From: a virus
Length of the DNA: 26,374 nt
Reading direction: 5' to 3' (one strand)
Virus record (IMG/VR): IMGVR_UViG_3300028553_000141
Location: 1-26,374 of that record
The position numbers were made by a program, and so were the translations under genes. Under the pieces are notes generated by a model. It was not told the origin of the DNA, made no database searches, and was given only the letters and a program-made list of their open reading frames with translations. Shown in pieces: positions 1 to 16,716 of this stretch. Numbering within the stretch: the first letter of the stretch is position 1; each line of letters starts with the position of its first letter.

Positions 1-455
1 CTTACATCACCAGAAACTTCAGTTTCACCGGTGGTTTCTACATCAGCTTGATCCCCTTCAGGACCGGCTGTGATACCCAAATCAAGGGCGTCATCTTTCA
101 TTACATCTTCAAAAAGTTTATCGAATACTGATTTGCTCATAAAAGTATTTATATTCTCTTTAACGCTTTTTCCAGTGTTTTGTGAAAATTTCCTGGGTTC
201 AAACGCATTATTTTCTTTTGCCGTCTTTGGATCCAATATCTCTTTAACACCTTCTGCATGCTCAGGCCCTGAATCTTTATGAAAAAACGCTTTGGCTTCG
301 GTGCCATCCTTCTTAATTACAATCTTCTTATCCTTGGCCTCTGGAAAGGAATGTAAGTCTTTAACTGCTTTCTCTACAACAACTTCAGAATTTTTATTCA
401 TGAATTGCTCTCGGTAAATTACAGATATGTCTTTGATATAGTTTTTGTCGCTCAT
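1..455 (-). CDS. Partial hypothetical protein, possibly an acidic capsid-assembly/core protein
   Basis: The frame is open on the minus strand from an ATG at 455 to the left edge, so the C-terminus is missing; 151 codons are visible. It begins MSDKNYIKDISVIYRE. I chose this start because a perfect TATAAATA (467-460) lies 4 bases upstream; another in-frame Met lies at 401. The first ~105 residues are Lys/Glu-rich and hydrophilic. From the Met at 140 the sequence reads MSKSVFDKLFEDVM and then becomes acidic and Gly/Thr-rich. No signal peptide, membrane segment or Cys is seen. I do not recognise the family with certainty. An acidic protein beside the terminase and tail genes could be a prohead core/scaffold component (T4 gp67/gp68 type), but that is inference. 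An internal start at 140 may give a second, shorter product. Confidence 0.7.
   Translation of the reverse strand, partial: MSDKNYIKDISVIYREQFMNKNSEVVVEKAVKDLHSFPEAKDKKIVIKKDGTEAKAFFHKDSGPEHAEGVKEILDPKTAKENNAFEPRKFSQNTGKSVKENINTFMSKSVFDKLFEDVMKDDALDLGITAGPEGDQADVETTGETEVSGDV
146..153 (-). promoter_or_regulatory. Perfect late-promoter motif inside the minus-strand gene
   Basis: The minus strand reads TATAAATA, then CTTTT, then an in-frame ATG (140-138). The spacing matches the other start-adjacent late motifs here, so it may drive a shorter nested product beginning MSKSVFDK. It lies within coding sequence, so chance cannot be excluded. Confidence 0.5.
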
Positions 456-459
456 GTGT

Positions 460-467
460 TATTTATA
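460..467 (-). promoter_or_regulatory. T4-type late promoter for the 1-455 gene
   Basis: The minus strand reads TATAAATA, then ACAC, then ATG at 455. With the T4 late geometry (motif at about -13 to -6) transcription would begin at the ATG, giving a leaderless message. Confidence 0.75.
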
Positions 468-472
468 TCTTT

Positions 473-480
473 ACTAAGTA
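473..480 (+). promoter_or_regulatory. Weak late-promoter variant before the terminase gene
   Basis: ACTAAGTA matches TATAAATA at 5 of 8 positions and lies exactly 5 bases before the chosen terminase ATG at 486. The same spacing is seen at the stronger sites. It is a tentative call that rests mainly on position. Confidence 0.35.
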
Positions 481-485
481 TTATT

Positions 486-2207
486 ATGGAAGACAAGGAG
501 AAGTATTATCTCGGCAACAACAAACTGCCTACTAGGGAAACAAAACACGAGTATACCCCCGAGATGATCAATGAGTTGAAGAAATGCAGAAAAAATATTT
601 TACATTTTGCGGAAAATCATTTTTACATTGTTAATCTAGACAGGGGAAAGGAAAAAATAAACCTACACCCTTGCCAGAAGAGAGTGCTCAGAGGTTTGAG
701 AGATAACCGATTCGTAATCTTGTTATCATCGCGTCAAGCTGGAAAAACTACCATGATGACAATCTATGCACTCTGGATTGCATGTTTCTCAGAAGATCAA
801 AGATTGTTGATTGTAGCTAACAAAGAGCAAACTGCTAAAAACATTTTCAAAAGAATTAGAACTGCCTATGAGATGTTGCCTAATTTCTTGAAACCTGGTG
901 TGGTTGAATATGGACAGACCAGCATGACACTCACAAATGGCAGCAGCATTGGCATCAGCACTACCAGCAGTGATGCAGGCAGAGGAGAATCTGTAAATGT
1001 GACCGTGCTTGATGAGTTGGCATTTATTGACAATCATATTGTGGAAAAATTCTGGGAATCAGTTTACCCAATTATTAGTAGCTCAAAAAAGAGCAAAATA
1101 TTCATAGCAAGCACTCCCAATGGTACAGAGAATTTATTCTACAGGCTGTACCAAGGTGCAATAGATAGTACCAATAATTGGAAAGCTGAAAGGATTGATT
1201 GGTGGGAGATACCCGGGAGAGATGAGGCATGGAAACAAGACACAATCAGAACCCTGGGCAGCACAGAAGCATTTGCGCAAGAATTTGGTAATGAATTCAT
1301 AGCAAGTGGTGAAACGTCGCTCAATGAAGAACATTACAATGAAATGCTGAAAGGTATAAAAGACCCTGAATATGTTTTCGATGAAGGTCATTACAAAATA
1401 TGGGAAGAGCCAAAAGATGGGAGAATATATACAGTTGGCGTGGACATTTGTGAAGGTGTGGGTGAAGCTGCTAGTGTGGTGCAAATTCTAGATATAACTG
1501 ATTTGTCCAACATAGAGCAAGTTGCAACATACCATAACAAAGACATTATCCCATATCAATTCACTGCAAAATTATTAGAAATTCTAGCTCAGTGGGGCAA
1601 TCCTCCTGTATTAATAGAAAGGAACAATTGTGGTGCCCAGGTTGTGGAACAGTTGAAATTTACTCACGGTTATGAAAATATTGTAACTTGGGGTGCCAAA
1701 GCTGCACACATTGTAGAGAAGAAGAAAGTTGGTATTCTTGCACATACTAACACAAAGTATAGAGGTGTTACCAATATGAGATATTGGACCAATGAAATAA
1801 AAGTGGTTAAATTGAGAGACATAGACACTCTTCGCGAATTAAAAAACTTTGTAAGATTTCCTAACAACACTTGGGGTGCAAGACCTGGTACAGACAGTTG
1901 GGATGACAGGGTGATGTCATTAATATGGGCATTGATAATTTTAGAGAATGAAATTTGTACCAGATATTTTGATATTGAAAAACTGGATGATTATAACAAA
2001 CCTATGATCATAAGACAATTGGACTATAATTCCTCCAGAGTCATAAGCCCGGTAGGTAGCTATTTGAATGAAAGAGATCCAACACCTAGTGCGTTACCAG
2101 CTGTGTTTGACAACAAGACCATGGATGAGGTGAACACCACACCAATGCTGCAAGATATTTCTGACCTTACCAATATGGGGTATGTACCTTTGGACCATTA
2201 TAAATAA
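486..2207 (+). CDS. 17: Terminase large subunit (T4 gp17-like)
   Basis: This is the ATP-driven DNA packaging motor and headful nuclease, which docks on the portal. The product is 573 aa; T4 gp17 is 610. N-terminal ATPase: Walker A SRQAGKTT at residues 82-89, Walker B with VLDE ending at D176-E177, and coupling motif ASTPNG at 208-213. C-terminal RNase H-like nuclease: acidic residues D320 (GVDICEG), E378 (LIERNN) and D473/D474 (SWDDR). I chose the start at 486 rather than the in-frame ATG at 405, because the extra 27 residues are hydrophobic, unlike gp17, and would overlap the divergent gene and its promoter. A weak late motif sits 5 bases upstream. The stop codon TAA is part of the TATAAATA that serves the next gene. 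Confidence 0.96.
   Translation: MEDKEKYYLGNNKLPTRETKHEYTPEMINELKKCRKNILHFAENHFYIVNLDRGKEKINLHPCQKRVLRGLRDNRFVILLSSRQAGKTTMMTIYALWIACFSEDQRLLIVANKEQTAKNIFKRIRTAYEMLPNFLKPGVVEYGQTSMTLTNGSSIGISTTSSDAGRGESVNVTVLDELAFIDNHIVEKFWESVYPIISSSKKSKIFIASTPNGTENLFYRLYQGAIDSTNNWKAERIDWWEIPGRDEAWKQDTIRTLGSTEAFAQEFGNEFIASGETSLNEEHYNEMLKGIKDPEYVFDEGHYKIWEEPKDGRIYTVGVDICEGVGEAASVVQILDITDLSNIEQVATYHNKDIIPYQFTAKLLEILAQWGNPPVLIERNNCGAQVVEQLKFTHGYENIVTWGAKAAHIVEKKKVGILAHTNTKYRGVTNMRYWTNEIKVVKLRDIDTLRELKNFVRFPNNTWGARPGTDSWDDRVMSLIWALIILENEICTRYFDIEKLDDYNKPMIIRQLDYNSSRVISPVGSYLNERDPTPSALPAVFDNKTMDEVNTTPMLQDISDLTNMGYVPLDHYK
2199..2206 (+). promoter_or_regulatory. T4-type late promoter overlapping the terminase stop codon
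   Basis: A perfect TATAAATA is followed by AACT and the ATG at 2211. It shares bases with the terminase's final codons (TAT AAA TAA). The predicted transcription start falls at the ATG. Confidence 0.75.
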
Positions 2208-2210
2208 ACT

Positions 2211-2810
2211 ATGGTCACACCAACAGATCAAACACCAGTAAATCAGACACCTGTAATACAGAGTCCTTTTAATAAGCAGCGCAAAGATAAGTTTTTATTG
2301 GTTTTAACTATACCAGAAATATTAAGAGATGATATTAATAAACTAGGTAAAAAGTATGGAACAGTAAATTTTGATTCATTGCAGTTCAGTGTTTATGGTG
2401 CAGTGGTACCAGCATTGGTAGTGCCTTCTGTCTCCTTATCATATGCCGGTCAAACAACCAAAATAACTTCTTACGCCAGACCGGAATGTCCTTGTTTGGT
2501 TGTTAATTTTACTGTTGATAATATGTTTAATAATTATTTTGTCATTTACAAATGGCTAGATATACTTAATAATGAAACACAAAGCTTTTATAATGCCAAT
2601 AAGCCTGGAGATGAGGGCAAATTAAACAGATATCAGACCAACGTAACAATATATGGTTTGGACGAATATAATAACAAGGTAGCAAGATTTAATTATCTAA
2701 AAGCATTCCCAGTTAGATTGGATGGAATAACTTATAATGAACGCGATCCTAGTGAAATGCAATCAACTTTTGAATTCGGTTACTCTCAGTGGACAATGGA
2801 ATTGCTATAA
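2211..2810 (+). CDS. Tail-tube-fold virion protein (gp19 superfamily-like paralog)
   Basis: A 199 aa protein with a Pro/Gln/Thr-rich N-terminal tail (about 1-25) and then a beta-rich domain. The pattern of a VPALVVPSVSL strand, a FTVDNMF strand, an IYKWLDIL helix, and a terminal STFEFGYSQW strand resembles the gp19/gp54 tail-tube fold. It sits between the terminase and the sheath, whereas the more typical gp19 lies just after the sheath. It could be a second tube subunit, a tube-end or adaptor ring, or a tail terminator; the sequence alone does not decide. The gene starts 3 bases after the terminase stop, 4 bases past a perfect late motif, with no Shine-Dalgarno site. Its own stop codon TAA is embedded in another TATAAATA (2806-2813). 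Confidence 0.65.
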   Translation: MVTPTDQTPVNQTPVIQSPFNKQRKDKFLLVLTIPEILRDDINKLGKKYGTVNFDSLQFSVYGAVVPALVVPSVSLSYAGQTTKITSYARPECPCLVVNFTVDNMFNNYFVIYKWLDILNNETQSFYNANKPGDEGKLNRYQTNVTIYGLDEYNNKVARFNYLKAFPVRLDGITYNERDPSEMQSTFEFGYSQWTMELL

Positions 2811-2813
2811 ATA
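2806..2813 (+). promoter_or_regulatory. T4-type late promoter for the sheath gene, with leader
   Basis: A perfect TATAAATA overlaps the TAA stop of the preceding gene. Transcription would start near 2819, leaving about 83 bases before the sheath ATG at 2902. Unlike most sites here, it makes a real 5' leader. Confidence 0.65.
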
Positions 2814-2848
2814 CTTTGACAAGTCTGTACAAAAGTATGCCAAGGAAC

Positions 2849-2856
2849 AATAAATA
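2849..2856 (+). promoter_or_regulatory. Second late-promoter-like motif before the sheath
   Basis: AATAAATA (7 of 8 matches to TATAAATA) lies 8 bases before the ATG of a 10-codon micro-ORF at 2865. The predicted start is near 2862. Confidence 0.45.
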
Positions 2857-2864
2857 AAACTGAT

Positions 2865-2897
2865 ATGACTACCAATTTTTCGGAGGTTTCAAAGTAA
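2865..2897 (+). CDS. Possible 10-codon leader peptide before the sheath gene
   Basis: ATG at 2865 opens MTTNFSEVSK and stops with TAA at 2895-2897, four bases before the sheath ATG at 2902. A late-like AATAAATA lies 8 bases upstream. The micro-ORF contains a strong GGAGG (2882-2886), which is 15 bases from the sheath ATG, too far for ideal direct use. Translating the micro-ORF could deliver ribosomes to the sheath start by coupling. It is too short for homology support, so it may be chance. Confidence 0.3.
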   Translation: MTTNFSEVSK

Positions 2898-2901
2898 TTT
2901 T

Positions 2902-5766
2902 ATGGCAAGAACAATTCAAAGCCCCGGAGTAGAGATACGTGAGGTTGATTTGTCGCTCAGAGGAGTCACTAGTCAGGGCACATCCATTCTTATCACCGGT
3001 TTCTCCAATCAAGGCCCCATAGATGAAATCATTCAACCAACAAGTCTGAGTGAGTTTGAACAAATTTATGGTTCACCAACCAACGCTGCAGAGAGATATT
3101 TTTACCACACAGTAAAGGCTGCATTTCAATCCCCTTCACAACTGTTAGTATCTCGTTTACCTTATGGTGTGGCATTGGGAGAAGGATTTGATCAATGGAA
3201 ATATAGTGCATTAGTTTATCCAGTTGTATCTTACAATAATGCCAGTGATACTGCAGCAGTATCTGCAGGCAAGCAAGTTGTAACCCTTACCAACACCATT
3301 GGTGATTATTCTGCATATGGTGTGTCTCTTGCATCAACACTTTCTGGCTCTGGTTTCCTCATTGGATTGGCCAGTGGCACTGTTTATGATTTCGGATATG
3401 CCATCAATGGCAACACTCCAGTATTTCACGGTATTGCATCATCCTTGAGTGCTACCATTGTTATTGACGATAGCATGACACCGCAACAGCTGTTATCACG
3501 CACTCTGAGTGCCATTGACAACACCATCAACGGTGGCTTGACATCAATAGGCACATACAACACCACAACCTCTGCATTCAATGTGCAGATCACCAACACG
3601 GTGGGTGGTGCAGTTGCGACAGCACCAGTAACATATGCAGCATATGCAGGTGTAGGGTCAACACAATTTGCCATATCATACACACCAGGCACAAATGCCA
3701 TTGCCGCAGTTTCTGGTGGTGTTGTTAGCAGTCTGTCGGCAGCAACAACTTATTTCTTTGGCACACCAACGCACATAGAATTGAGCGTCGAACAATATCA
3801 AGAGTTGCTCAATAACAATGTCAATTGGTCTGCTACACCATCAGTAACAAGCAAGAACACACCATATACCTACAACACATTGGGCGAGTCTGGGTTCATT
3901 GTTCTCAACAAATCTCAGACCACAATCAATTCCAAGTTTGAAGGATATTATATTGGTATAACAGATAACAATAACAATAATCCTGCAACACCATTTGATG
4001 GCATTCTCAATATAAACACACTTGCTTCTAATGCAGATTCAAACAGCTATATTGAAATTCCGCGTGCCAGGTTGAACTTCCCACTCAGTGCATCAAAGTT
4101 TGGTGATGGCTCCAGTATCAGTGAAGTGCAAGAGAATATATCCAAGTTTGATATCAGTTCACGCATATTTGATGATACAGTGTTATTTGGATTGTACAAG
4201 TTGCGTCAAAGTGTTTTCTCACCTGATGTGATTGCTCTTGATTATATTGCATCTGAAACTTATGCAGGTTCACTTGATTTTCATCGTCAAATTGCTGATC
4301 AGAATGGTGGCCCAGCAATTAGCTTCTACTTGGGCCAGCAGCAAGCCAGCTCGCCCAATGTCAATACAATTGTGAATCCTTTCTTGAATGATCGCTATGA
4401 CAATACATGGCTCAATGATGATGGTGTGCCTTCTAGGAAAGTAAGATTCCTTTCAGATAGATTGGCGTTGCCGTTCAATGTGCAGGGCTTCACAGATAAT
4501 GCCACGTCTTATAGCACAAGAGTTGGTGCACCATCAGCAGTAGTGGGCACATTACTGACCCAAATGGGCACAACAAATGCATTGTTCCCAATTGGTGTGT
4601 ACAATGACACTGTGGCAACCAACAAAGACATTGGAAACTTGCCTGATAAGCTTGAGAGAGTGTTTGAGCTGGTAGAAAATCCTGATCTGTATCCCATCAG
4701 TGTTGCATGTGAAGCAGGTCTTGGAACCATCTATGTTAATGCAGTTGAAAGAACATTGGCTGGTGGTCTTCCGCTTTCTGGCACAGGTCCATTCATTGAT
4801 TCAGAACCTTTAAATGCCCTCAGTGCATGGTACACCACCAACAGTGAAGAGCTGTCTGATGAAGGTCTGCGCTTAAGAGCCAATTACAATGCAGTTGCTA
4901 GTGTGTTTGTAAACCAAGCACAAAACCAACGCAAAGACTTCATGGTAATATTGGATCCTATCAGAAACATATTTGTGCAGGGTGATAATGCCAAGGTGAT
5001 AAACAGCAAGAAACTTTTTGGACCTAATGCTGGTGAGGCACCCAATCCAACTGCTCCTGGATTTGTTTCAACTAATTTCAGTCAGCACATCTACTGGCCA
5101 TTGAGACATCAGTTTGGCATAACAGATACTAGCTATGCAGCAATATATGCAAACTGTGCACAAGTACTTGACAATGTGACAAATCGTCAAATATGGGTGC
5201 CGTTCAGCGGCTTTGCAGCGGCAGCAATGGGCAACACTGATGCTAACTTCCAACCATGGTTTGCACCAGCAGGCTTTACACGTGGTGTGTTGTTGGGTGT
5301 GAATGATCTGGGTGTATATCCCAAGCAGAAGCAACGCGATCAACTTTACAAGATCAGTCTCAACCCAGTCACATTCTTCCCTGTGGAAGGGTTTGTAATA
5401 TATGGTCAAAAGACTGCCCTCAAGAAACCCAGCGCATTTGATCGCATCAATGTGCGTAGATTGTTCTTGACTCTGGAGACATTGACTCGCAATACAGTGA
5501 AATACTTTGTATTCGAACCAAACACACTCTTCACACGCACACAGGTTATCAACACATTGACACCCATCTTTGAGAATGCTAAAAATACAGATGGCGTCTA
5601 TGATTACTTGATCATATGCGATGAACGCAATAACACACCTGATGTTATTGATAATAATGAGCTCAAAGTGGATCTGTACCTGAAACCAGTACGTACTGCT
5701 GAGTTCATCTTGGTGAGCTTTTATGCAACCCGCACTAGTCAAAACTTCCAGGAGCTCCTAGCGTAA
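2902..5766 (+). CDS. 18: Contractile tail sheath protein (T4 gp18-like)
   Basis: Subunit of the contractile sheath around the tail tube. The N-terminus (MARTIQSPGVEIREVD) is the classic sheath opening, and the C-terminal domain from about residue 790 has the conserved NPVTFFPVEGFVIYGQKT and INVRRLFLTLE segments. At 954 aa it is much longer than T4 gp18 (659). The extra length includes a Ser/Thr/Gly/Ala/Val-rich beta-type stretch at about residues 107-287, probably a surface-exposed domain. Base composition differs from the neighbours: sampled lines run at about 43-53% GC against mid-30s elsewhere, across the gene and not only in the insertion, which suits codon selection in a very highly expressed gene. 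The start is fixed by the conserved N-terminus; two upstream late motifs and a micro-ORF may control it. Confidence 0.96.
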   Translation: MARTIQSPGVEIREVDLSLRGVTSQGTSILITGFSNQGPIDEIIQPTSLSEFEQIYGSPTNAAERYFYHTVKAAFQSPSQLLVSRLPYGVALGEGFDQWKYSALVYPVVSYNNASDTAAVSAGKQVVTLTNTIGDYSAYGVSLASTLSGSGFLIGLASGTVYDFGYAINGNTPVFHGIASSLSATIVIDDSMTPQQLLSRTLSAIDNTINGGLTSIGTYNTTTSAFNVQITNTVGGAVATAPVTYAAYAGVGSTQFAISYTPGTNAIAAVSGGVVSSLSAATTYFFGTPTHIELSVEQYQELLNNNVNWSATPSVTSKNTPYTYNTLGESGFIVLNKSQTTINSKFEGYYIGITDNNNNNPATPFDGILNINTLASNADSNSYIEIPRARLNFPLSASKFGDGSSISEVQENISKFDISSRIFDDTVLFGLYKLRQSVFSPDVIALDYIASETYAGSLDFHRQIADQNGGPAISFYLGQQQASSPNVNTIVNPFLNDRYDNTWLNDDGVPSRKVRFLSDRLALPFNVQGFTDNATSYSTRVGAPSAVVGTLLTQMGTTNALFPIGVYNDTVATNKDIGNLPDKLERVFELVENPDLYPISVACEAGLGTIYVNAVERTLAGGLPLSGTGPFIDSEPLNALSAWYTTNSEELSDEGLRLRANYNAVASVFVNQAQNQRKDFMVILDPIRNIFVQGDNAKVINSKKLFGPNAGEAPNPTAPGFVSTNFSQHIYWPLRHQFGITDTSYAAIYANCAQVLDNVTNRQIWVPFSGFAAAAMGNTDANFQPWFAPAGFTRGVLLGVNDLGVYPKQKQRDQLYKISLNPVTFFPVEGFVIYGQKTALKKPSAFDRINVRRLFLTLETLTRNTVKYFVFEPNTLFTRTQVINTLTPIFENAKNTDGVYDYLIICDERNNTPDVIDNNELKVDLYLKPVRTAEFILVSFYATRTSQNFQELLA

Positions 5767-5769
5767 AGG

Positions 5770-5781
5770 AATAAATAAATA
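5770..5781 (+). promoter_or_regulatory. Late-promoter-like motif before the tube gene
   Basis: Two overlapping AATAAATA copies (5770-5777 and 5774-5781) lie 7 and 3 bases before the ATG at 5785. The predicted start is at or within a few bases of the ATG, and there is no Shine-Dalgarno site at usable spacing. Confidence 0.5.
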
Positions 5782-5784
5782 ACC

Positions 5785-6327
5785 ATGCCCGCCATAAAAC
5801 AAACCATAGCAGACTTTTATAGAATAGCAGCAGCACGCGACTTCCAGCGTGATATTCACTTCAGAGTGCTTAGCATCTCTCCTGGCGGCTCAACTGTAAC
5901 GTTTGATGAAAACGATTTAGTATATGCAAGAGCAGCTACTCTACCAGCAAGAGCCATCAACATAAACGAGGTGAAATACATGGGATTAAACTTTAATATC
6001 CCTGGTGTTGCAACTTATCCTAATAGTAGCAATTACTCTTTGCAATTCTTTAATGATGCAAAGAACAACATTAGAACCAAGTTTGAAACTTGGACAAGAG
6101 ATACTTTCAATGATACCAATAGCACCGGCAATTACTTTACCCCCACACAATCCAGCACAATTGATTTGATTCAACTAGATAATCAATTGGAAAAAGTTGC
6201 ACAGTATCAATTGGTAGGTGTTAGTATAAAAGAAGTTGGTGACATCAAGTATGACTTCACCGGAGCCGGTGCACCAGTGAACTTCAATGTGGCCATGTCT
6301 TATCATTATTTTGTTAAGAAAGCTTAA
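5785..6327 (+). CDS. 19: Tail tube protein (T4 gp19-like)
   Basis: Major subunit of the inner tail tube through which DNA leaves. The product is 180 aa; T4 gp19 is 163. An N-terminal helix (IADFYRIAAARDFQRD) is followed by strand RVLSI, a LVYARAATLPARAI segment typical of the gp19 loop, GLNFNIPG, a NYSLQFFND strand, a KFETWTRDTF helix, and C-terminal strands ending NVAMSYHYF. It directly follows the sheath gene, as 19 follows 18 in T4. A late-like AATAAATA motif sits just upstream. High copy number is expected from its role. Confidence 0.9.
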   Translation: MPAIKQTIADFYRIAAARDFQRDIHFRVLSISPGGSTVTFDENDLVYARAATLPARAININEVKYMGLNFNIPGVATYPNSSNYSLQFFNDAKNNIRTKFETWTRDTFNDTNSTGNYFTPTQSSTIDLIQLDNQLEKVAQYQLVGVSIKEVGDIKYDFTGAGAPVNFNVAMSYHYFVKKA

Positions 6328-6346
6328 CTGTAATTTTGTAGTTTCT

Positions 6347-6354
6347 ATTAAATA
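6347..6354 (+). promoter_or_regulatory. Late-promoter variant before the gp54-like gene
   Basis: ATTAAATA (6 of 8) lies 5 bases before the ATG at 6360, the same spacing as the stronger sites. Confidence 0.45.
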
Positions 6355-6359
6355 TATAC

Positions 6360-7307
6360 ATGCCTGGTGGTCTAGGAAACCCTCTCACTGATGCCTTTAC
6401 TGGATTAACAAATAATCTTGTAGATATAGGCAGAGGCACCAATTCATTAACACAGCCTCAAATTACCGATTTATTTGGATTCAATATCCCTGGTGTACCA
6501 CTAATATCTACCAGAGACTACTTTTTGCTGCAAATGGAGAGTTGGCTGACTTCCATACCCACGCAAAGTCAATGGATAGCTATCATAGATTCATACCCTG
6601 CAGCACTAAACAATACATTGCTCCAAAATTTAGAAAGAACTGATGGTGCAAGAAAAGGTTACAATATAGACCAAGCTAAAACTGTCTTGACAAGCTTCCC
6701 TCTGCAAAAAGTAATAGGTTGTGTATTTGCCCAAGGTGTTGATATACCGCAAGAAGGCTTTGAAGTTAACAACATCAACATTGACAACAACAGAGGTTTC
6801 ATTCAAGGTGTTGCCGCAGGGGATAGATATGCATACAATCAAAACAGGCTCACTCTTACCTTTCTAGAAACCAATACCAGTTTCATAGATTTTGTTATAA
6901 GACCGTGGGTCATAATGGCCAGTCATTTTGGATTGGTGGCTCGCCCTGGAGATGTGCCTGGATCCAAAGATAAACTAAACATGAAATCGATAATTACTCT
7001 CATGTGTTATACCAGAAGTTATCAAAACATAAGCCAAATACCCAGAAAAGTATTTACATTTTACAATTGCGTACCACACGCCATAGTAGATCAGCCCTAT
7101 ACCTATGATAATGACAAAATAGCTAGTTACTCAACATATTGGACATATACCAATTATACTATTCAAAACAGCTTATACTTTCCATTGCCAGATATTATTA
7201 ATAGAGTTCAAGGAATAGTAAATGGTTCTAATATACCGCAAGTTTCACCTCTGCAAAATGCTGCACAAAATGGAACAAATATCTTTAATGCGGCTGGGTT
7301 CTTTTGA
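6360..7307 (+). CDS. 54: Baseplate tail-tube initiator-like protein (gp54-like)
   Basis: A 315 aa protein, close to T4 gp54 (320 aa), the baseplate protein on which tube polymerisation begins. The C-terminal half has the tube-like fold: LTLTFLETNTSF, FVIRPWVIMASHFG, KSIITLMCYTRSY, then VFTFYNCVPHAIVDQPYTYD and SYSTYWTYTNYTI. This matches the order in gp54 of a conserved in-plane strand, a substituted helix, and a 'gC.P' loop before the final strands. The N-terminal ~60 residues are Asn/Thr/Gly-rich. It follows the tube gene. The stop TGA (7305-7307) overlaps the next gene's ATG by one base. The gp54 call rests on remembered family pattern and context; a gp48-type assignment is the alternative. 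Confidence 0.7.
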   Translation: MPGGLGNPLTDAFTGLTNNLVDIGRGTNSLTQPQITDLFGFNIPGVPLISTRDYFLLQMESWLTSIPTQSQWIAIIDSYPAALNNTLLQNLERTDGARKGYNIDQAKTVLTSFPLQKVIGCVFAQGVDIPQEGFEVNNINIDNNRGFIQGVAAGDRYAYNQNRLTLTFLETNTSFIDFVIRPWVIMASHFGLVARPGDVPGSKDKLNMKSIITLMCYTRSYQNISQIPRKVFTFYNCVPHAIVDQPYTYDNDKIASYSTYWTYTNYTIQNSLYFPLPDIINRVQGIVNGSNIPQVSPLQNAAQNGTNIFNAAGFF

Positions 7308-8125: not shown

Positions 8126-8136
8126 CAAAAATACAG

Positions 8137-8144
8137 TATAAATA
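8137..8144 (+). promoter_or_regulatory. T4-type late promoter for the hub operon
   Basis: A perfect TATAAATA is followed by 6 bases and the ATG at 8151. It heads a run of five overlapping genes ending at 13732. Confidence 0.75.
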
Positions 8145-8150
8145 TAACAT

Positions 8151-9593
8151 ATGGATCTAGAAACCCAACAAGAGCAGTTTGATGAGACTATTAAGCTTAA
8201 TAGCATATTGAGCTCCATAGAAAAACAAAATACTCTTTTGGATGAAATTTCAAAAAATAATCAAGCTGCCAAGCCCACTAATAGCATTGTATTGGACAAA
8301 CCGGTACTTGGTACAGATAATAAAAATAAGGATTCAGATAAAAATTCAAATGCTACCAAGCAAGATGAAAGCAATATTACCAGCATAAGCATAAAGGAAG
8401 ATCCAATTAAGAGTGATGTTAATGATGATGCTGAGCAAGCCGAAGAAGATAATGTTATAAACAAAGAGACAGACATATTGCAGGATAGGCCTGAGACCAA
8501 TACTAAGACTCAAACAAAAGAAGACAAGCCAACTGATAACATGCCTGATTGGTTTAACATTGTAAAAAACCAAATAAGCGAATTAGTAGACAGTAAAGAC
8601 AGTAAGGATATTGTTGAGTTTAGTGGACCTAGTAGTGTTGACAAAGGCGAAGCTACTGTAGAGGAGAAAATTAATACAGTAACAGAGCCTGAGGTTTCAA
8701 GCAAAGCAAATGTCTCAGAGGCTGTTTCTGTGGATGAGATTAATGAAAATACTGATGAAAAGAGTCTAGAGAATGTTGAACCGGTTGTTAGTATTAATAG
8801 CGTAACAGAGAAAATTTCTGAAAAATCTCAAGATAATTTTTATAAAATTTCTGATTTGAAAGAAGATTCTGAATCTTTAGTAGAACCAGTACAGGAGACT
8901 GAACAGCAAGAAATAGGTCCAGAGAAAGAACCCCCAGTAATTAATGTGGTTAGTAAAAACAAGAGCAGCTCTATAGATTCTTCAGATGTAAAAGTTAATC
9001 CCGAGACTGAACCAGCTGAGATCAATGAAAGTGCACAAGAAATTGCTCAAATTAATTCTGAAGAAATATCTGAACCAACTACAGTAGCATTACCTGAGCA
9101 AGAATCACCAGAAAGCATAGATAATGGTCAAGAATTTAGTGAAAATACAGATAACTCAAAAGTAGAGAACAACCAACCTTCACCTGCTGAATCTATACCT
9201 GGGGTAGCTCAATCAGAATATAGATTTATGCCTGAAGAAGCTACAGAATCTCCTGAATCTGTAAATTCCCTAGAGACCTTAGTATCTGAAATATCTAAAC
9301 AAATAGTAAACCTTTCACAGAACAACGATAAGAATTTTTTAAATATAGCTAATATTATGATAGGTATTAGCAACACTCTCAGAGCAATGAACAACAATTT
9401 AAGTAATCTTGGCGGTAATAACACATTTGTTAATCAAGGAGAGGGTGGTGCCGGAAATAAAAATGGCTCCTATAATGACACTTACAATCAATTAAATCTG
9501 GCCAGATACAGACAGCAAATGAGAAACCCTGGTACAGCTAACGATGTTGCAACAAGAGTGCTTAGACACAGTACACCAGGAGTCACATTATGA
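8151..9593 (+). CDS. Long acidic, probably disordered tail protein in the tape-measure position
   Basis: A 480 aa protein of unknown family. Residues 1-42 look like a coiled coil (IKLNSILSSIEKQNTLLDEI). About 60-390 are dominated by Glu, Asp, Ser, Asn, Pro and Val with no Cys and almost no aromatics, so they are probably disordered. About 395-480 look more ordered: a helical segment ISKQIVNLSQNN, a hydrophobic NIANIMIGISNTL stretch, then a Gly/Asn-rich linker and a basic end with NLARYRQQMRNPG. T4 places the tape measure gp29 (590 aa) just before gp48, and this gene holds that place before a gp48-like gene. If it is the tape measure, it is compositionally unusual. It could instead be a scaffold-like or tail-assembly protein. 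It starts a leaderless-type operon, and its stop overlaps the next ATG (ATGA). Confidence 0.6.
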   Translation: MDLETQQEQFDETIKLNSILSSIEKQNTLLDEISKNNQAAKPTNSIVLDKPVLGTDNKNKDSDKNSNATKQDESNITSISIKEDPIKSDVNDDAEQAEEDNVINKETDILQDRPETNTKTQTKEDKPTDNMPDWFNIVKNQISELVDSKDSKDIVEFSGPSSVDKGEATVEEKINTVTEPEVSSKANVSEAVSVDEINENTDEKSLENVEPVVSINSVTEKISEKSQDNFYKISDLKEDSESLVEPVQETEQQEIGPEKEPPVINVVSKNKSSSIDSSDVKVNPETEPAEINESAQEIAQINSEEISEPTTVALPEQESPESIDNGQEFSENTDNSKVENNQPSPAESIPGVAQSEYRFMPEEATESPESVNSLETLVSEISKQIVNLSQNNDKNFLNIANIMIGISNTLRAMNNNLSNLGGNNTFVNQGEGGAGNKNGSYNDTYNQLNLARYRQQMRNPGTANDVATRVLRHSTPGVTL

Positions 9594-10954: not shown

Positions 10955-11343
10955 GTACGTTATTCGACGGCTCTTCAGCGCTGGGGTTATTTCGCAATGA
11001 TATAAACAATCTATTGAATGTGTCTGAAAACTGTTACGAGAATATTTTCAGGATGTATACTACTAATGACAACCAGTATTTTTACAATCTTCTGAATAAT
11101 GTGTGCCTTCCTGTAGATATATCACCATCCTATTTTTATGTGGTAAAAATATCACGTAAAACAGCATGGACTGTAATTAGTTACAATGAATATAAAACAA
11201 TGAATTTGTGGTGGTTAATTTGCATAGTTAACAATATTCAAAACCCTATTGATTACCCAGTCCCCGGCACACAACTTAAAATAATTTATCCTCAATATGT
11301 TAAAACTATTTTAGATGAAATTAATTCTAAGATCAATTTATGA
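10951..11343 (+). CDS. 53: Baseplate wedge protein (gp53-like) with LysM-like end
   Basis: A 130 aa protein, shorter than T4 gp53 (196 aa). The diagnostic pattern is in the C-terminal half: WTVISYNEYKTMNLWWLICIVNNI, then NPIDYPVPGTQLKIIYPQ, the 'W..i..N.i.nP......G..L.i' run of gp53 proteins, with the last part resembling a LysM repeat. gp53 clamps adjacent wedges to the hub and triggers baseplate closure. It overlaps the upstream and downstream genes by 4 bases each, inside the hub operon. Confidence 0.8.
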   Translation: MSTLFDGSSALGLFRNDINNLLNVSENCYENIFRMYTTNDNQYFYNLLNNVCLPVDISPSYFYVVKISRKTAWTVISYNEYKTMNLWWLICIVNNIQNPIDYPVPGTQLKIIYPQYVKTILDEINSKINL

Positions 11344-12881
11344 GCATAAACCTTTACAATAACCTTACAAACAACCAGTCACCACCTATAGCACGATTGC
11401 AGGATACTGATTATAGTTTTGAAGCAATAATTTTTAATTCGGATGGAATAGAGTTTAAGATTAATCCTAATGCCATCTCCGACTTTAAGATAGTAGATGA
11501 ATTGGAGAAATTTTACCATTATGGGTTCATAATATTTAAGAATGATCAAGATGTACTGGAATCTATTGAAACCATAGATTCTGATAACAGTACTAAGATG
11601 TTTAATCCTTATGTGTTTAGGGGTGATGGTAGAGATTTCTTGAGAGTAAAAATCAAACCAACTAAAAACGAAGGTGACTTAATTACAGGTGATTCTTCCA
11701 AGACCGATGAGTTTGAATTGAATTTTATTTTTAGCATCTACGATTATGAAGATTTGCACGGTGAAAATAAATCAGAAAAATTTAAAAAATTATATTTCTG
11801 GGATTATACCTATCAGATATTAAATGAAAGAAATTCAAACTTTACAACAAGTAAATATTCCAAAGGTTTATCAGATTCAGACAGGAGTATACATACCGGT
11901 GATGCAATAAGAAACCTACTTACTGAAATCTTTAAAGATGAAATTCAAGGTAAAATTAATTTTGACACAGATTTTGACAAAGGTAGTTCAAAAATATTTT
12001 ACTCCTCGCCAGCTGGCTACAAAGCAATTGATGATTTAAACTACCTATTGGACAGACATGTGAGTTCAAAAGATTCAGATTTTTCACCATGTTTTTTCAA
12101 AAAAGAACGAAACAGTAGCTTTTCTTTGAGGCCAATAACTACATACTTCAAAGGTGCTTACTATAAGGGCAATGAGAGCGTGGGCAATTTGGGTGGCGGG
12201 TTTTTAATAGAAAATTTTGTCATGGGCAAGCAAGACAGTAGTGACCGAGGTAACAACAATTCACCATTGAGAGCACCTGGCATATCTCTGTTTTCTTCTA
12301 ATTTAGCAGATTATTCTTATGTAGAAAATTTCAGTGTTTCTAATATGGCGGCAGATGATACTCAGAATAGCATAGTATCTTACAATGTGCATAACTACGA
12401 TCATAACACCAAGCTATTTACTGTGGATTCAAATGAGAATAATTTTGAAACCAATAATAAAATTTACAATAAAAATCTTGTCAATTATATGAAAGGCCGC
12501 TCTGGCAAAAGCCCTTCTTCTAACATGAGTGCCAATCTATTTAGAAAGGAAAATAAAAATCTTAAGCATGTTTTTAACAGCAGTAAAACTCCTGAACAGA
12601 GATTAAATTCCGGCAGAAATCAGTTTCTGATGAACTCCATTTTCATGAATACTGCTATTTCATTCAGAACTAATGGCAGTGTGAGACGTCAAACAGGCAG
12701 ATTCATAACCATTCAAAGAAATAATTCTCAAGCCGATAGTAGCTTTGACAATAAAATCATGGGAATTTATATGATAACAAACATAACACATTCATTTATT
12801 AAAGGTAGCTATCAGAATTATATTATTTGTACCAAGGTATACAATATGGATAATAACAAACTAACAAGTAAAGTATTATGA
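11340..12881 (+). CDS. 27: Baseplate central hub protein (gp27-like)
   Basis: A 513 aa protein; T4 gp27 is 391. An N-terminal beta domain (DYSFEAIIFNSDGIEFKINP, IVDELEKFYHYGFIIFKND) is followed by a region with KIFYSSPAGYKAIDDLNYLL at about residues 218-237. That segment and the following CFFKKERN and FSLRP strand are typical of the gp27/VgrG-type hub, whose two barrels connect the spike to the tube. The C-terminus (GRFITIQRN, GIYMITNITHSFIKGSYQN) has the conserved closing strand of phage hubs. Asn/Ser-rich loops account for the greater length. It is coupled to gp53 and to the downstream unknown by ATGA overlaps. Confidence 0.8.
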   Translation: MSINLYNNLTNNQSPPIARLQDTDYSFEAIIFNSDGIEFKINPNAISDFKIVDELEKFYHYGFIIFKNDQDVLESIETIDSDNSTKMFNPYVFRGDGRDFLRVKIKPTKNEGDLITGDSSKTDEFELNFIFSIYDYEDLHGENKSEKFKKLYFWDYTYQILNERNSNFTTSKYSKGLSDSDRSIHTGDAIRNLLTEIFKDEIQGKINFDTDFDKGSSKIFYSSPAGYKAIDDLNYLLDRHVSSKDSDFSPCFFKKERNSSFSLRPITTYFKGAYYKGNESVGNLGGGFLIENFVMGKQDSSDRGNNNSPLRAPGISLFSSNLADYSYVENFSVSNMAADDTQNSIVSYNVHNYDHNTKLFTVDSNENNFETNNKIYNKNLVNYMKGRSGKSPSSNMSANLFRKENKNLKHVFNSSKTPEQRLNSGRNQFLMNSIFMNTAISFRTNGSVRRQTGRFITIQRNNSQADSSFDNKIMGIYMITNITHSFIKGSYQNYIICTKVYNMDNNKLTSKVL

Positions 12882-13732
12882 ACAAACAGAAAACATTAGA
12901 TCCGGAGATATTAAGTTTAAATTTATTTTATAAGAAGGATTTTTACAACAAAGCTAGTAATTTCCTGAATGCTGTTAGTAATTACACAAAACAGCTACAA
13001 ACTGCAGTTGACTATCAAAAAACATTAGTATCTAATGATGTTATAACTTCTCAAGCAGAGTTTTTCAACAAATTAAACAAAGATCTAGATGGTTACGATG
13101 CACAGTTTGCAGCCTATTGGGTTAGAAAGTACAATTCTACTCTCAATCAGATCAAAACCGAATTAGCCATTAAGGGTGGTAACAACAAATATTTTAAGGT
13201 ATTGAGCGATAGTGTTGGTTCCATAGGCAGAATAGAAAACTATTATGATGATAGTACCAGTTTGGTAAGCGATGTTGATAGTAGCAACAAAGTTTCTCCG
13301 CTTAGATATGGTTCTTCGTTATTTAATAAAATTAATCCTAATTCTTTGATGCTGCATGCAGAGATGAGCAAAAAATTAAATATATTATTCAATAAGAACA
13401 TAAACAATATACAGCCAGCTATTGCTGAAAATACTACTGCACATGGTGATAACTTAATACCAGACATTGCACATTTTCAACGCATTCAATCCAATATTAG
13501 CACAATAAATCAAAAAATACAATCCAGTTTTGGTGTTGTGTACAAATTAATAGAGCATTATTGCTTCTATAATCCCCAAAATTCAACAAGCAATTTGCAG
13601 TTTGCACCTAATATAAACATTACTGTTGATGTTGAAGGCAACCCTATAAATCAAGATCTATTATTCAACCAGCTACAACAGGTAAAGAGCAATCTGACTA
13701 CGATGAAAGTGCTGGGAGTTGAGAAACAGTAA
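12878..13732 (+). CDS. Unknown protein after the hub gene
   Basis: A 284 aa protein I do not recognise. It is largely helical, rich in Asn, Gln, Lys and Tyr, with segments such as FLNAVSNYTKQLQTAVDYQK (about 29-48) and FFNKLNKDLDGYDAQFAAYW, and a helical patch MSKKLNILFNKNINNIQP in the middle. There is no Cys-rich, signal or membrane pattern; one Cys lies in HYCFYNP. It is the last gene of the ATGA-coupled hub operon, so a baseplate or hub-accessory role is likely by association only. Its 3' end overlaps the convergent minus-strand gene by 35 bases (13698-13732). Confidence 0.7.
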   Translation: MNKQKTLDPEILSLNLFYKKDFYNKASNFLNAVSNYTKQLQTAVDYQKTLVSNDVITSQAEFFNKLNKDLDGYDAQFAAYWVRKYNSTLNQIKTELAIKGGNNKYFKVLSDSVGSIGRIENYYDDSTSLVSDVDSSNKVSPLRYGSSLFNKINPNSLMLHAEMSKKLNILFNKNINNIQPAIAENTTAHGDNLIPDIAHFQRIQSNISTINQKIQSSFGVVYKLIEHYCFYNPQNSTSNLQFAPNINITVDVEGNPINQDLLFNQLQQVKSNLTTMKVLGVEKQ

Positions 13733-14174
13733 CTGCTTCTGCCTCTATGACCTTGGCATCTTCTAAAATTTTCTTAAACACCTCATCTCTGCTCAGCAAT
13801 ACCTTGGTTTTACTTTCTTCCGCTTTTAAGACTTTTCTAGATTCTATTTCCATTATCTTTATTTCTTTTAAATTGTCCTTCTTCAAGTGAGTAATATGTA
13901 TATCCTTAATAACGTTCAGCGCGCTTGCAACAGCCTTCAGAGCTTCAGATAAAGATGCTACTTCTCTACTTTCCGGATTATTCATCACATAATCTTTGAC
14001 ATTGTCAATAATGTCCAATCCTTGGGTCACAAGTTTACCTGTGCTGTTTAATACAAAATTCTCCAGCTTATCTCTATCCAAGTGCTGATCCACATTTTCA
14101 CTGGTGTTCTTGACAACAGCATTTGTTTGTTTGATCTGTTCTATTAGATCGTTTACATTTAGTTCTTTTTCCAT
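13698..14174 (-). CDS. Helical coiled-coil protein; candidate small terminase subunit (gp16-like)
   Basis: A 158 aa protein, almost all helical. I chose the ATG at 14174 because an AGGA lies about 8-11 bases upstream and a late-like TATAAATT is 19 bases away; the longer start at 14225 would cover the opposite gene's start and that motif. Central residues (LVTQGLDIIDNVKDYVMNNP, then EALKAVASALNVIKDIHIT) resemble the paired helices of T4-type gp16 (164 aa), followed by a charged linker and a helical tail. The small terminase is otherwise missing next to the large terminase, but it lies 12 kb away here, unlike T4, so the assignment is tentative. A coiled-coil structural or assembly protein is the alternative. 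It overlaps the upstream convergent gene by 35 bases. Confidence 0.55.
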   Translation of the reverse strand: MEKELNVNDLIEQIKQTNAVVKNTSENVDQHLDRDKLENFVLNSTGKLVTQGLDIIDNVKDYVMNNPESREVASLSEALKAVASALNVIKDIHITHLKKDNLKEIKIMEIESRKVLKAEESKTKVLLSRDEVFKKILEDAKVIEAEAVTVSQLPALSS

Positions 14175-14193
14175 CTTGATATCCTGTGTATAT

Positions 14194-14201
14194 AATTTAT
14201 A
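14194..14201 (-). promoter_or_regulatory. Late-promoter-like motif with a leader and Shine-Dalgarno
   Basis: The minus strand reads TATAAATT (7 of 8), then 19 bases including AGGA, then ATG at 14174. This is the conventional arrangement with a ribosome binding site, unlike the start-adjacent motifs elsewhere. Confidence 0.45.
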
Positions 14202-14209
14202 TTGATAAT

Positions 14210-14653
14210 ATGAATTTACCAGCATACGAGCCTTCTATGCGGTTTGAAAAGACCCACACAGATGCCAAATTACCAGAAAAAAACTATGAGACTGATGCTG
14301 GGTGGGATTTATTCTCAGTAGACAACTGTGTCATACCACCCAAAGGCAGATACACTGTGCCTGTTGGTTTGAAGTTAGCGTACTTGGAACCAGGTTACTG
14401 GATTAAGGTTGCATCCAGATCTGGTTTGAGTTTCAAGCATGGTATCTTGGCGCACCCAGGTGTTGTTGATCAGAATTATAGAGGCGATCTGGGTGTTCTA
14501 TTGTATAATCATAGTGATGTGCCTTATACAGTTGTCAAGGGTGACAGGGTAGCGCAGCTGGTATTGCATTTCAATATTCAAATGAAAGTGGATTGGGGCA
14601 CTGTGCAACAAACAGATCGTGGTGAAAAAGGGATTGGTAGCAGTGGAAAATAA
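14210..14653 (+). CDS. dut: dUTPase (dUTP diphosphatase, trimeric type)
   Basis: Hydrolyses dUTP to dUMP and pyrophosphate, limiting uracil in DNA and supplying dUMP for thymidylate. The product is 147 aa with all five trimeric dUTPase motifs: DAGWDLFS (29-36), RSGLS (70-74), GVVDQNYRGDL (84-94; D87 is the expected catalytic Asp), GDRVAQLV (111-118), and RGEKGIGSSG (137-146). In motif 5 the usual aromatic before GS is replaced by Ile (GIGSSG). I chose the ATG at 14210; an in-frame ATG at 14186 would add 8 residues overlapping the minus gene's leader. No late motif precedes it, consistent with early or middle expression. Its 3' end overlaps the clamp-loader gene. Confidence 0.93.
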   Translation: MNLPAYEPSMRFEKTHTDAKLPEKNYETDAGWDLFSVDNCVIPPKGRYTVPVGLKLAYLEPGYWIKVASRSGLSFKHGILAHPGVVDQNYRGDLGVLLYNHSDVPYTVVKGDRVAQLVLHFNIQMKVDWGTVQQTDRGEKGIGSSGK

Positions 14654-15596
14654 AATTGGTGTAGATAATTTTTGGGTGGAGAAGTATAGACCTTCCACCT
14701 TGGATGACATGGTACTGGTGGAAAATAACAGAACTATATTATCTTCCTTTGTTAAGAATAAGGAAATACCCAACCTATTGTTTTCAGGCCATGCAGGCAT
14801 AGGCAAAACATCCACTGCAAAAGTGTTAATCAATGAACTAGATGCTGAAAGCATTTATAAGAATTGCTCCGAGGTAGGCATAGAAGAGGTTCGCACTGTC
14901 ATCACCAATTTTAGTAGAACCAAAAGTTTCAATGGCAATAGAAAGATTGTATTTTTGGATGAGGTGGATGGCATGGCGTCTATTGAAGCACAGAGGTCGT
15001 TGCGCAATGTGATGGAGGAATATGCTTCTCATTGTAGATTCATTCTGACTTGTAACTATATTCACAGAGTAATTGAGCCTCTGCAGAGCAGATGTCAGTC
15101 CATGGATCTTACACCACCTTTGCCTGAAGTACTCAAGAGATGTTATAGTATCTTAAAAAGAGAGCAGGTCAATCTGGATGACAGCAATAAAACCAAGCTA
15201 GTTACATTGGTGCGCAAGTTTTACCCAGACATTAGAAAATGCATTAACGAGATGCAGAAATTTAGTGTTGAGGGCAATCTCAACATACCAGATACAACCA
15301 GCACAGATGAATTTGTAGATAAAGTAATGAGATGTATTCTTGATAAAAAGATTTTAAATGGAAGAAAACTCATCATTGAGAATGAGGCATCATTCCGGGG
15401 TGACTATGCCATGTTGATGAAGGGTGTTTTTGATGCAGTTTGCTCAGGCAATTACCCTATAAATGAAAATCAGAGAAAATTTTGGCTAATTTGCATTGGT
15501 GAATACATGTATCGGAGCGCCCTAGTACTTGACCAGGAAATAAACTTTTATTGTATGATGTTAGCTCTGAGTGATATCAACCCTATTACTTCTTAG
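14643..15596 (+). CDS. 44: Clamp-loader AAA+ ATPase large subunit (T4 gp44-like)
   Basis: Loads the sliding clamp onto primed DNA during phage replication. Domains: EKYRPSTLDDMVL near the N-terminus, Walker A GHAGIGKT, Walker B IVFLDEVD, a CNY sensor-1 segment, and the SRC motif (LQSRCQS) with the arginine finger, then a helical collar domain. I chose the GTG at 14643 because it puts the first YRP 15-17 residues in, as in T4 gp44 (319 aa), giving 317 aa; GTGs at 14619 and 14622 are alternatives and would give up to 35 bases of overlap with dUTPase. There is no ATG near. Neighbouring gp62 and gp45 are not in the window. The 3' end overlaps the convergent gene by 11 bases, so no room exists for a terminator. 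Confidence 0.92.
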   Translation: MENKIGVDNFWVEKYRPSTLDDMVLVENNRTILSSFVKNKEIPNLLFSGHAGIGKTSTAKVLINELDAESIYKNCSEVGIEEVRTVITNFSRTKSFNGNRKIVFLDEVDGMASIEAQRSLRNVMEEYASHCRFILTCNYIHRVIEPLQSRCQSMDLTPPLPEVLKRCYSILKREQVNLDDSNKTKLVTLVRKFYPDIRKCINEMQKFSVEGNLNIPDTTSTDEFVDKVMRCILDKKILNGRKLIIENEASFRGDYAMLMKGVFDAVCSGNYPINENQRKFWLICIGEYMYRSALVLDQEINFYCMMLALSDINPITS

Positions 15597-16185
15597 GCAG
15601 ATATATTGCTGTGCCATTCTTTACGCTGGGGTCTCTGGCACCTTTGGCTGGGCTGCTAGGTATTTGCACATTGGTATTGTTTAATGTCCTATCACCTTCA
15701 CTATCCTTCTTATTGCCCACATCACTTGTGTGAGTCTGTCTTAGAGGTGTGAGAAAATCTGCACCTTTTTCGGTTTCTTCTTCCTCTGGTTTTATTTGAG
15801 TGTTATCTTTTCTTTTGAGATCATCAGGCACTGGTGCCAGATTTATGCCTGTGTCAACATGTTGAACTAAATGTGCAGGTATAGTTATGAATTCTTTGTA
15901 TAAACCTGGTGCAAGTTCTAAGACAATATCCAGAAGAAAATTCTCCGCTTCATTTTGTACATCTCCAGAATGTATTGTTGGTCTCACTGCCTTGACTGCA
16001 CTAACTCTTATGTTTCTGCCGCTTGTAGCAAAAGATTTGGCCTTCTCAATATAATTGGAAGCTTGTTGCTTGAAGAAATCATCCTTAAAAGCATCATCCT
16101 TAAACTTAACAAGATCACCAGTTAAGAAGCCACCCCTGGTGAAGCGTTGTATTGCCGATTCGTAAAGTGCAGTAAATCTACCCAT
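15586..16185 (-). CDS. Hypothetical, probably virion-associated protein
   Basis: A 199 aa protein of unknown function. The N-terminal ~120 residues look folded: MGRFTALYESAIQRFTRGGF, GDLVKFKDDAFKDDFF, NIRVSAVKAVRP, ENFLLDIVLELAPGLYKEFI, and a conserved-looking VDTGINLAPVPDDLKR. The C-terminal ~75 residues are acidic then Ser/Thr/Lys-rich and probably disordered. I believe I have seen similar sequences in other T4-like genomes near structural genes but cannot name a family. A CATAAGTA motif lies 5 bases before its ATG, which fits late expression. It is divergent from gp25 and convergent with gp44 (11-base overlap). Confidence 0.75.
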   Translation of the reverse strand: MGRFTALYESAIQRFTRGGFLTGDLVKFKDDAFKDDFFKQQASNYIEKAKSFATSGRNIRVSAVKAVRPTIHSGDVQNEAENFLLDIVLELAPGLYKEFITIPAHLVQHVDTGINLAPVPDDLKRKDNTQIKPEEEETEKGADFLTPLRQTHTSDVGNKKDSEGDRTLNNTNVQIPSSPAKGARDPSVKNGTAIYLPKK

Positions 16186-16190
16186 ATATA

Positions 16191-16198
16191 TACTTATG
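16191..16198 (-). promoter_or_regulatory. Late-promoter variant for the 199 aa gene
   Basis: The minus strand reads CATAAGTA, then TATAT, then ATG at 16185. It differs from TATAAATA at two positions and keeps the 5-base spacing. Confidence 0.5.
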
Positions 16199-16232
16199 TT
16201 ATTATTATTTATTTTCAGAAATGTTAATAATC

Positions 16233-16240
16233 CATAAATA
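16233..16240 (+). promoter_or_regulatory. T4-type late promoter for the gp25 operon
   Basis: CATAAATA (7 of 8; the NATAAATA form known from T4-like cyanophages) is followed by ATTCA and the ATG at 16246. The predicted start falls exactly on the A of the ATG. It heads the gp25-gp6-gp7-like unit. Confidence 0.7.
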
Positions 16241-16245
16241 ATTCA

Positions 16246-16716
16246 ATGGCTGCTATTAGAATAACATCTTTATCACCAACACTTAGTTCTAGGGTGTTAT
16301 TTAATGATATTAGATTGGATCTGGAAACCAATTACACCAAGAATACACAACTTCTTAAAAAGAGAGAGATTAAAGACATACAGAATTCAGAAAACATAGG
16401 AGCCATACAAAACAGTATTTTTAACCTGTTCACTACCATGCCAGGTCAAAAGATATTGAACCCAGTTTTTGGGTTGAACCTACAACAATTCATTTTCACT
16501 GGTTTATCCGAATTGAATGGCAAATTGATGGCCGAAACTATTCTGAAAGGACTGAACAAATATGAGCCAAGAGTTAAAGTTAAGAACGTGAATGTGGAGG
16601 TGGATTATGATAATAATCAATACAATATTTACCTTCTATTAAATGTTCCAGCTTTAAATAATACGGTGATATCCCTGAAAGGAACATTATCTGAATCAGG
16701 ATATTATTTCAACTAA
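16246..16716 (+). CDS. 25: Baseplate wedge protein gp25 (lysozyme-like fold)
   Basis: A 156 aa protein; T4 gp25 is 132. The diagnostic block is FTTMPGQKILNPVFGLNLQQ at about 64-83, the 'pGe.l..P.fG.....' signature of gp25-type wedge proteins, followed by a helix GLSELNGKLMAETILKGLNK and the closing strands YNIYLLLNVPALNNTVI. gp25 joins gp6 and gp53 in the wedge and nucleates sheath assembly. It sits immediately before gp6 (2 bases apart) and is driven by a leaderless-type late promoter. Confidence 0.9.
   Translation: MAAIRITSLSPTLSSRVLFNDIRLDLETNYTKNTQLLKKREIKDIQNSENIGAIQNSIFNLFTTMPGQKILNPVFGLNLQQFIFTGLSELNGKLMAETILKGLNKYEPRVKVKNVNVEVDYDNNQYNIYLLLNVPALNNTVISLKGTLSESGYYFN

Follow-up and report, generated by a model that had tools for sequence, protein, structure and literature searches.

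Late transcription in bacteriophage T4 is a textbook system, in which the mRNAs carry leaders and ribosome sites. The T4 late promoter, TATAAATA, occupies positions -13 to -6 (PMC1524935). It lies mostly 14-35 nucleotides (nt) ahead of the late ATGs, leaving a leader with a Shine-Dalgarno (SD) sequence. Here we analyze IMG/VR virus record IMGVR_UViG_3300028553_000141, a complete viral contig record of 26,374 bp (the window, meaning this whole stretch), which is a fragment of a T4-type phage and in which the same promoter appears to be merged with the start codon. Its motifs stand 3-8 nt before the ATG and the resulting mRNAs are predicted to be leaderless; a merger of this kind ties the spacing of the promoter to the choice of start codon, so that neither can change without the other. 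On the sequence evidence we consider it very probable that these motifs are T4-type late promoters fused to start codons, and that the first cistrons are leaderless or nearly so. Our searches of the open-access literature brought up no description of leaderless late mRNAs for a T4-like phage.

The assignment to the T4-type phages follows from PHROG matches to the virion genes gp17, gp18, gp19, gp25 and gp6. Among the best-listed named phages, none has a terminase more than 38% identical to that of the window. For comparison we collected 80 viral-contig loci with terminases 46-100% identical to that of the window, and read six large relatives whole (G001, G009, G010, G019, G020 and G021; 105-230 kb, near-complete or large). 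Open reading frames (ORFs) were called with a simple caller.

Late promoter motifs adjoining start codons

The predicted late promoters are as follows, where N4 denotes a gap of four nt between motif and ATG, and the basis of each row is given last.

453-467, minus strand: late promoter TATAAATA (460-467), N4, ATG 455; exact motif
473-488, plus strand: degenerate late promoter ACTAAGTA, N5, terminase gp17 ATG 486; sequence
2199-2213, plus strand: late promoter TATAAATA, N4, tube-like protein ATG 2211; exact motif
5770-5787, plus strand: late promoter or promoters AATAAATA at 5770 and 5774, N7/N3, gp19 ATG 5785; motif, orthologues and shuffle count
6347-6362, plus strand: late promoter variant ATTAAATA, N5, ATG 6360; sequence, with orthologues mostly ATAAATA
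8137-8153, plus strand: late promoter TATAAATA, N6, ATG 8151; exact motif
16183-16198, minus strand: late promoter variant CATAAGTA, N5, ATG 16185; sequence
16233-16248, plus strand: late promoter CATAAATA, N5, gp25 baseplate wedge ATG 16246; motif and orthologues

The preliminary description of this DNA counted six perfect copies of TATAAATA and placed five at the start of a gene or in a gap between genes, and we find the same: exact copies lie at 146 and 460 on the minus strand and at 2199, 2806, 8137 and 25367 on the plus strand, and five of the six are so placed. Its spacings for 455(-) (N4), 140(-) (N5), 2211 (N4), 5785 (N3/N7), 8151 (N6) and 16246 (N5) are likewise correct. The motif is ATTAAATA-N5 at 6360 and CATAAGTA-N5 at 16185(-), and at 486, which the description itself called weak, it is a poor match, ACTAAGTA-N5. 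All three weak sites carry the canonical motif in several orthologues: ATAAATA stands 4-6 nt from the ATG in several terminase orthologues, and 5-6 nt from the ATG of the 16185(-) orthologues in G009 and G010, while CATAAGTA recurs in G001. The gene starting at 455(-), divergent from the terminase, has a start-adjacent motif also in orthologues of 52-57% identity, and the promoter at 2199, which overlaps the terminase stop codon, is kept in several relatives. No orthologue of the gene at 8151 was found with which to check conservation. The ATG at 140(-), listed there among genes that lead transcription units, is an in-frame internal start and not a unit-leading gene.

The signal lies in position and not in abundance. 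Words resembling TATAAATA are ordinary in overall number (84 in the window against 72 expected), and the signal is therefore positional: ATAAATA-N3-8-ATG occurs eight times in the window against 1.67 +/- 1.24 in shuffled sequence, with none of 100 shuffles reaching eight. Across 1031 ORFs of the window and the relatives' loci, TATAAATA stands 2-9 nt ahead of a start 110 times, whereas the 56 permutations of its letters have a median of 5; the permutations that rank higher mostly overlap this site or are shifted versions of it, TAAATAAT being an example. In 22 large relatives, summed by hand, ATAAATA-N3-7-ATG occurs about 390 times and the reversed pattern 86 times. The preliminary description had proposed comparing motif-to-ATG distances genome-wide with scrambled controls; in the six relatives the distances peak sharply at 4-6 nt, unlike those of letter-permuted motifs, and in every one N5 is at or near the mode. 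In these six genomes the motif precedes 155 of 798 unit-leading genes and 15 of 434 genes coupled to an upstream gene (P = 3e-17, which is indicative only because the ORF caller is simple and the genomes are related).

With a window G+C of about 0.36 and a TAA inside the motif, one might suspect that AT-rich sequence alone produces the pattern, or that it arises from taking whichever ATG comes next after a stop, since TAAATA contains TAA. We regard this as extremely improbable. Permuted motifs, reversed motifs and shuffled sequence do not produce the effect, and seven motif sites of the cultured phage HTVC008M agree with the coding sequence starts deposited in GenBank. Nor can the TAA of the motif create the start, being out of frame with an ATG at N5, as is that of TATAAT at N6; this excludes a coding artefact.

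The relatives encode two parts of the machinery on which such promoters depend in T4. A homologue of gp55, the late sigma factor, is present in six of six relatives (in G010 the PHROG match to late sigma has E = 2e-24); this evidence comes from the relatives, as the gene does not lie on the 26-kb window itself. A homologue of the sliding clamp gp45 is present in nine of the ten relatives tested. There is no peak of TTGA, the -35 element, at the 155 late sites. The sites share with T4-type late promoters the TATAAATA consensus and the absence of a -35 box, and the phages share gp55 and gp45 with T4.

In the T4 register a 5-nt gap places +1 on the A of the AUG. In the relatives, SD words do not exceed background where a gene leads its unit and rise only slightly where it is coupled, so that the absence of SD sites noted earlier in the window extends genome-wide in the relatives, with the sheath and capsid genes (GGAG) as exceptions. 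Alternatively, the motifs could be late promoters with initiation further downstream or elsewhere, the true start being a later ATG, or leadered mRNAs from upstream promoters could dominate. The spacing in the window does range from 3 to 8 nt, and the transcription start sites (TSSs) are derived from geometry. Yet the mode of each promoter class, N5 for the late motif and N6 for the host-type class described below, fits the known register of that class, and the residues directly after the ATGs are conserved (MAA/MAT in gp25, MAR in the sheath, MSKS/MKS at the nested start). We judge this alternative, in either form, to be unlikely.

A second class of predicted promoters and its distribution by function

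The dUTPase gene was put forward in the preliminary description as a motif-free internal control. It does lack the late motif, but it is a misleading control, as it has a start-adjacent promoter of another kind:

14176-14212, plus strand: sigma-70-like promoter TTGA (14176-14179), N18, TATATT (14198-14203), N6, dUTPase ATG 14210; orthologues

This layout is shared by G001, G009, G010, G019 and G021, and by most orthologues. In the relatives, TATAAT-like hexamers precede 143 of the 643 unit-leading genes without a late motif and 23 of 419 coupled genes. The spacing mode is N6 before the ATG (91 of 143), and TTGA lies 17-19 nt upstream of the hexamer in 73 of the 143, against 3 at coupled genes. 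As the sigma-70 -10 hexamer occupies -12 to -7, a gap of N6 puts +1 on the A of the AUG. The geometry of both classes, N5 for the late motif and N6 for the sigma-70-like one, thus places +1 at the start codon, and with the sigma-70-like class present genome-wide the early genes look leaderless too.

Promoter class follows gene function. Virion genes have 21 late against 2 sigma-70-like promoters, and dUTPase, gp32, gp46, gp47 and gp55 together have no late and 13 sigma-70-like promoters; phoH and nrdB, which we had filed beforehand as early, are the source of 5 late cases.

These observations bear on a further explanation, that the AT-rich words are a Kozak-like translation-initiation signal, as proposed for SD-less Bacteroidetes, with the real promoters and leaders further upstream. 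The relatives do lack SD sites, and Kozak-like sequences have been reported in Flavobacterium (PMC6847099). However, a correctly spaced -35 box and sorting by function are not expected of a purely translational signal. The signal goes with genes that lead their units and is rare at coupled ones, and the late word is the gp55 consensus in phages that encode gp55, the same word standing mostly 14-35 nt upstream of T4 late genes. Moreover, the SD-less Tenacibaculum phage pT24 has no such peak, while HTVC008M, which uses SD sites, has one. We therefore judge a Kozak-like signal to be quite unlikely.

We propose the following model, in which use of the motifs as promoters, the exact TSSs, leaderless translation and coupling are what we infer. 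The gp55-dependent late promoters would have moved downstream until transcription began on the A of the AUG itself. In each late unit the mRNA would then have no leader, or one of at most 3 nt, and translation of the first cistron would presumably start with 70S ribosomes on the 5'-terminal AUG, that of the downstream cistrons via stop-start coupling. The host-type (TTGA...TATAAT) promoters of early genes would be fused to their start codons likewise.

Several observations weigh against this model or limit it. In the six relatives, a strict motif of either class is found at only 298 of 798 unit-leading ORFs, and the TAAATA core alone at 96 more; the ORFs with no strict motif may have leaders, weaker motifs or wrongly called starts, or may be false ORFs. 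In the clade nearest the window the spacing is broad (4-7 nt), so that transcripts there may have a leader of 0-3 nt or begin just within the start codon. The gene at 13698-14174(-) has an AGGA but lacks a late motif next to its start, and GGAG-type sites occur at the sheath and capsid genes. We did not find gp45 in G020, nor the gp33 co-activator in the relatives in a search that had no working positive control. Finally, counts across related genomes are not independent. The claim that start-adjacent late promoters predict leaderless late mRNAs is supported by spacing and register; it was incomplete in that it took no account of the host-type promoters, the nested start, or the different handling of the sheath and capsid genes.

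As to the host, the terminase relatives in GTDB metagenome-assembled genomes (MAGs) are scattered over phyla, and the best match, a Verrucomicrobia MAG (L144, contig CAIYYI010000011.1), was rejected as host evidence because the contig appears chimeric, with an AT-rich T4-like phage end and a G+C-rich remainder. WhiB, looked for as host evidence, was not found, and bS21 occurs only in G010, in a 68-aa (amino acid) frame (G010:C1:39344-39463, minus strand). In G050, G059, G084 and G117, which belong to the same phylum as the Verrucomicrobia MAG, TATAAT-N6-ATG occurs 23-36 times against 0-2 for the reversed pattern (for example 36 against 0), which suggests leaderless genes in some Verrucomicrobiota. 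The same pattern is mildly in excess in Bacteroidota and Actinobacteriota; as the excess extends over several phyla, we make no host call from it.

The nested start, the sheath mini-ORF and gene content

Within the gene divergent from the terminase, a further exact copy of the motif precedes an internal ATG:

138-153, minus strand: nested late promoter TATAAATA (146-153), N5, internal ATG 140; in frame with the ORF from 455(-)

The pattern [T/C]ATAAATA-N5-ATG is in frame in 30 of 30 homologue sequences listed, several of which are near-identical contigs; over the aligned region their identity to the window protein is 49-100%. When most duplicates are removed, leaving 20 sequences, Ile102 within the motif is encoded by ATA in 20 of 20, against 31% elsewhere in these genes, and the following Asn codon is AAT in 20 of 20. 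Such codon identity is found in just 11 of 79 conserved degenerate columns. The DNA is therefore conserved here beyond the requirements of the protein, as would be expected of an internal late promoter, which would yield a second, shorter in-frame product of the gene. The gene (3-455, minus strand) encodes an acidic protein, which is 294 aa at full length in L002 and in which ELPDSKG is repeated towards the C-terminus. No family match for it was found in PHROG; our guess is that it is a prohead scaffold.

At the sheath gene the late promoter is set apart from the start by a short reading frame:

2849-2904, plus strand: late promoter AATAAATA (2849-2856), N8, mini-ORF MTTNFSEVSK* (2865-2897), sheath ATG 2902; relatives compared

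We assign the sheath gene to this AATAAATA rather than to the TATAAATA at 2806, which lies 23 nt before an ATG opening only six codons and is not conserved in the close relatives L003 and L004. The mini-ORF of the window has ten codons with GGAGG inside. Nearly all close relatives listed have a mini-ORF of 10-11 codons before the sheath, mostly containing GGAG(G), with 1-5 nt between its stop and the ATG of the sheath. The mini-ORF is absent from L008 and from more distant relatives, whose late motif directly abuts the sheath start; G021 has a different, 7-codon mini-ORF in this position. Leaderless initiation may load ribosomes on the mini-ORF, from which they would be handed on to the sheath start beside the GGAGG. 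The capsid gene gp23 retains GGAG behind a conserved hairpin-like stretch in the G001/G009/G010 clade. A hairpin-like GAGGC...GCCTGA or similar sequence is seen upstream of gp23 in all six large relatives.

The genes around these sites are:

486-2207, plus strand: terminase gp17; PHROG match
2211-2810, plus strand: tube-like protein; tail-tube family
2902-5766, plus strand: sheath gp18; PHROG match
5785-6327, plus strand: tail tube gp19; tail-tube family

Further PHROG matches are to tail and baseplate genes, dUTPase, the clamp loader gp44, gp25 and gp6. The sheath gene (2902-5766) is flanked by two different proteins of the tail-tube family (2211-2810 and 5785-6327). The window sheath is 954 aa long, against 659 aa for T4 gp18, with a large additional region; its tail-sheath family matches cluster at the C-terminal end.

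Comparison with cultured phages and known systems

We scanned 14 named T4-like phages for the start-adjacent pattern. HTVC008M stands out among them (15 against 4, most at exactly N5, a sharp mode); RM378 has 6 against 1. We rejected pT24, an AT-rich and SD-less phage, as a named example of the same layout, since its 27 against 10 showed no positional peak in a full reading. Like the window lineage, the Pelagibacter phages HTVC008M and Mosig EXVC030M (Kyanoviridae) have ATAAATA at N5, exactly so before the ATG of 8 and 6 genes, respectively. They differ from it in carrying SD sequences at other genes (45-47%) and almost no start-adjacent TATAAT, and Mosig, unlike the window lineage, also has motifs 10-32 nt upstream. 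An attempt at predicting late promoters in pelagimyophages is reported to have failed (PMC7029224), which their start-adjacent location may explain. As both phages are cultured and infect Pelagibacter, a marine bacterium, the arrangement is testable.

Taken together, we lean towards a view in which an uncultured, lytic T4-type lineage starts most of its translation units leaderless, with both promoter classes locked to the AUG and output tuned by leaderless mini-ORFs and nested in-frame promoters. The late half of this arrangement would then have been either acquired or retained by the pelagimyophages. If so, aquatic T4-like phages would translate leaderless mRNAs at scale, and gene callers could use the motif to fix starts.

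The arrangement resembles T4 and the NATAAATA promoters of cyanophages S-PM2 and Syn9 in its 8-bp motif, in having no -35 box, in gp55 and gp45, and in serving virion genes. In T4, Syn9 and phiM9, however, the motif is mostly 20-39 nt before the ATG when the genomes are compared in this way, leaving a leader. Similar, too, are the -10-adjacent leaderless genes of Deinococcus-Thermus (PMC12340547), in which a -10 element close ahead of the ORF is reported to give leaderless mRNA, and the leaderless genes of mycobacteria (PMC3898074, PMC4633059); both differ in being bacterial, with no phage or phage late sigma described there. The nested start at 140(-) recalls T4 genes 17 and 21, whose record notes give an internal start and a shorter in-frame protein, with internal transcription noted for gene 17. 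It differs from these in lying in another gene and in having an internal promoter that is start-adjacent and conserved across the lineage.

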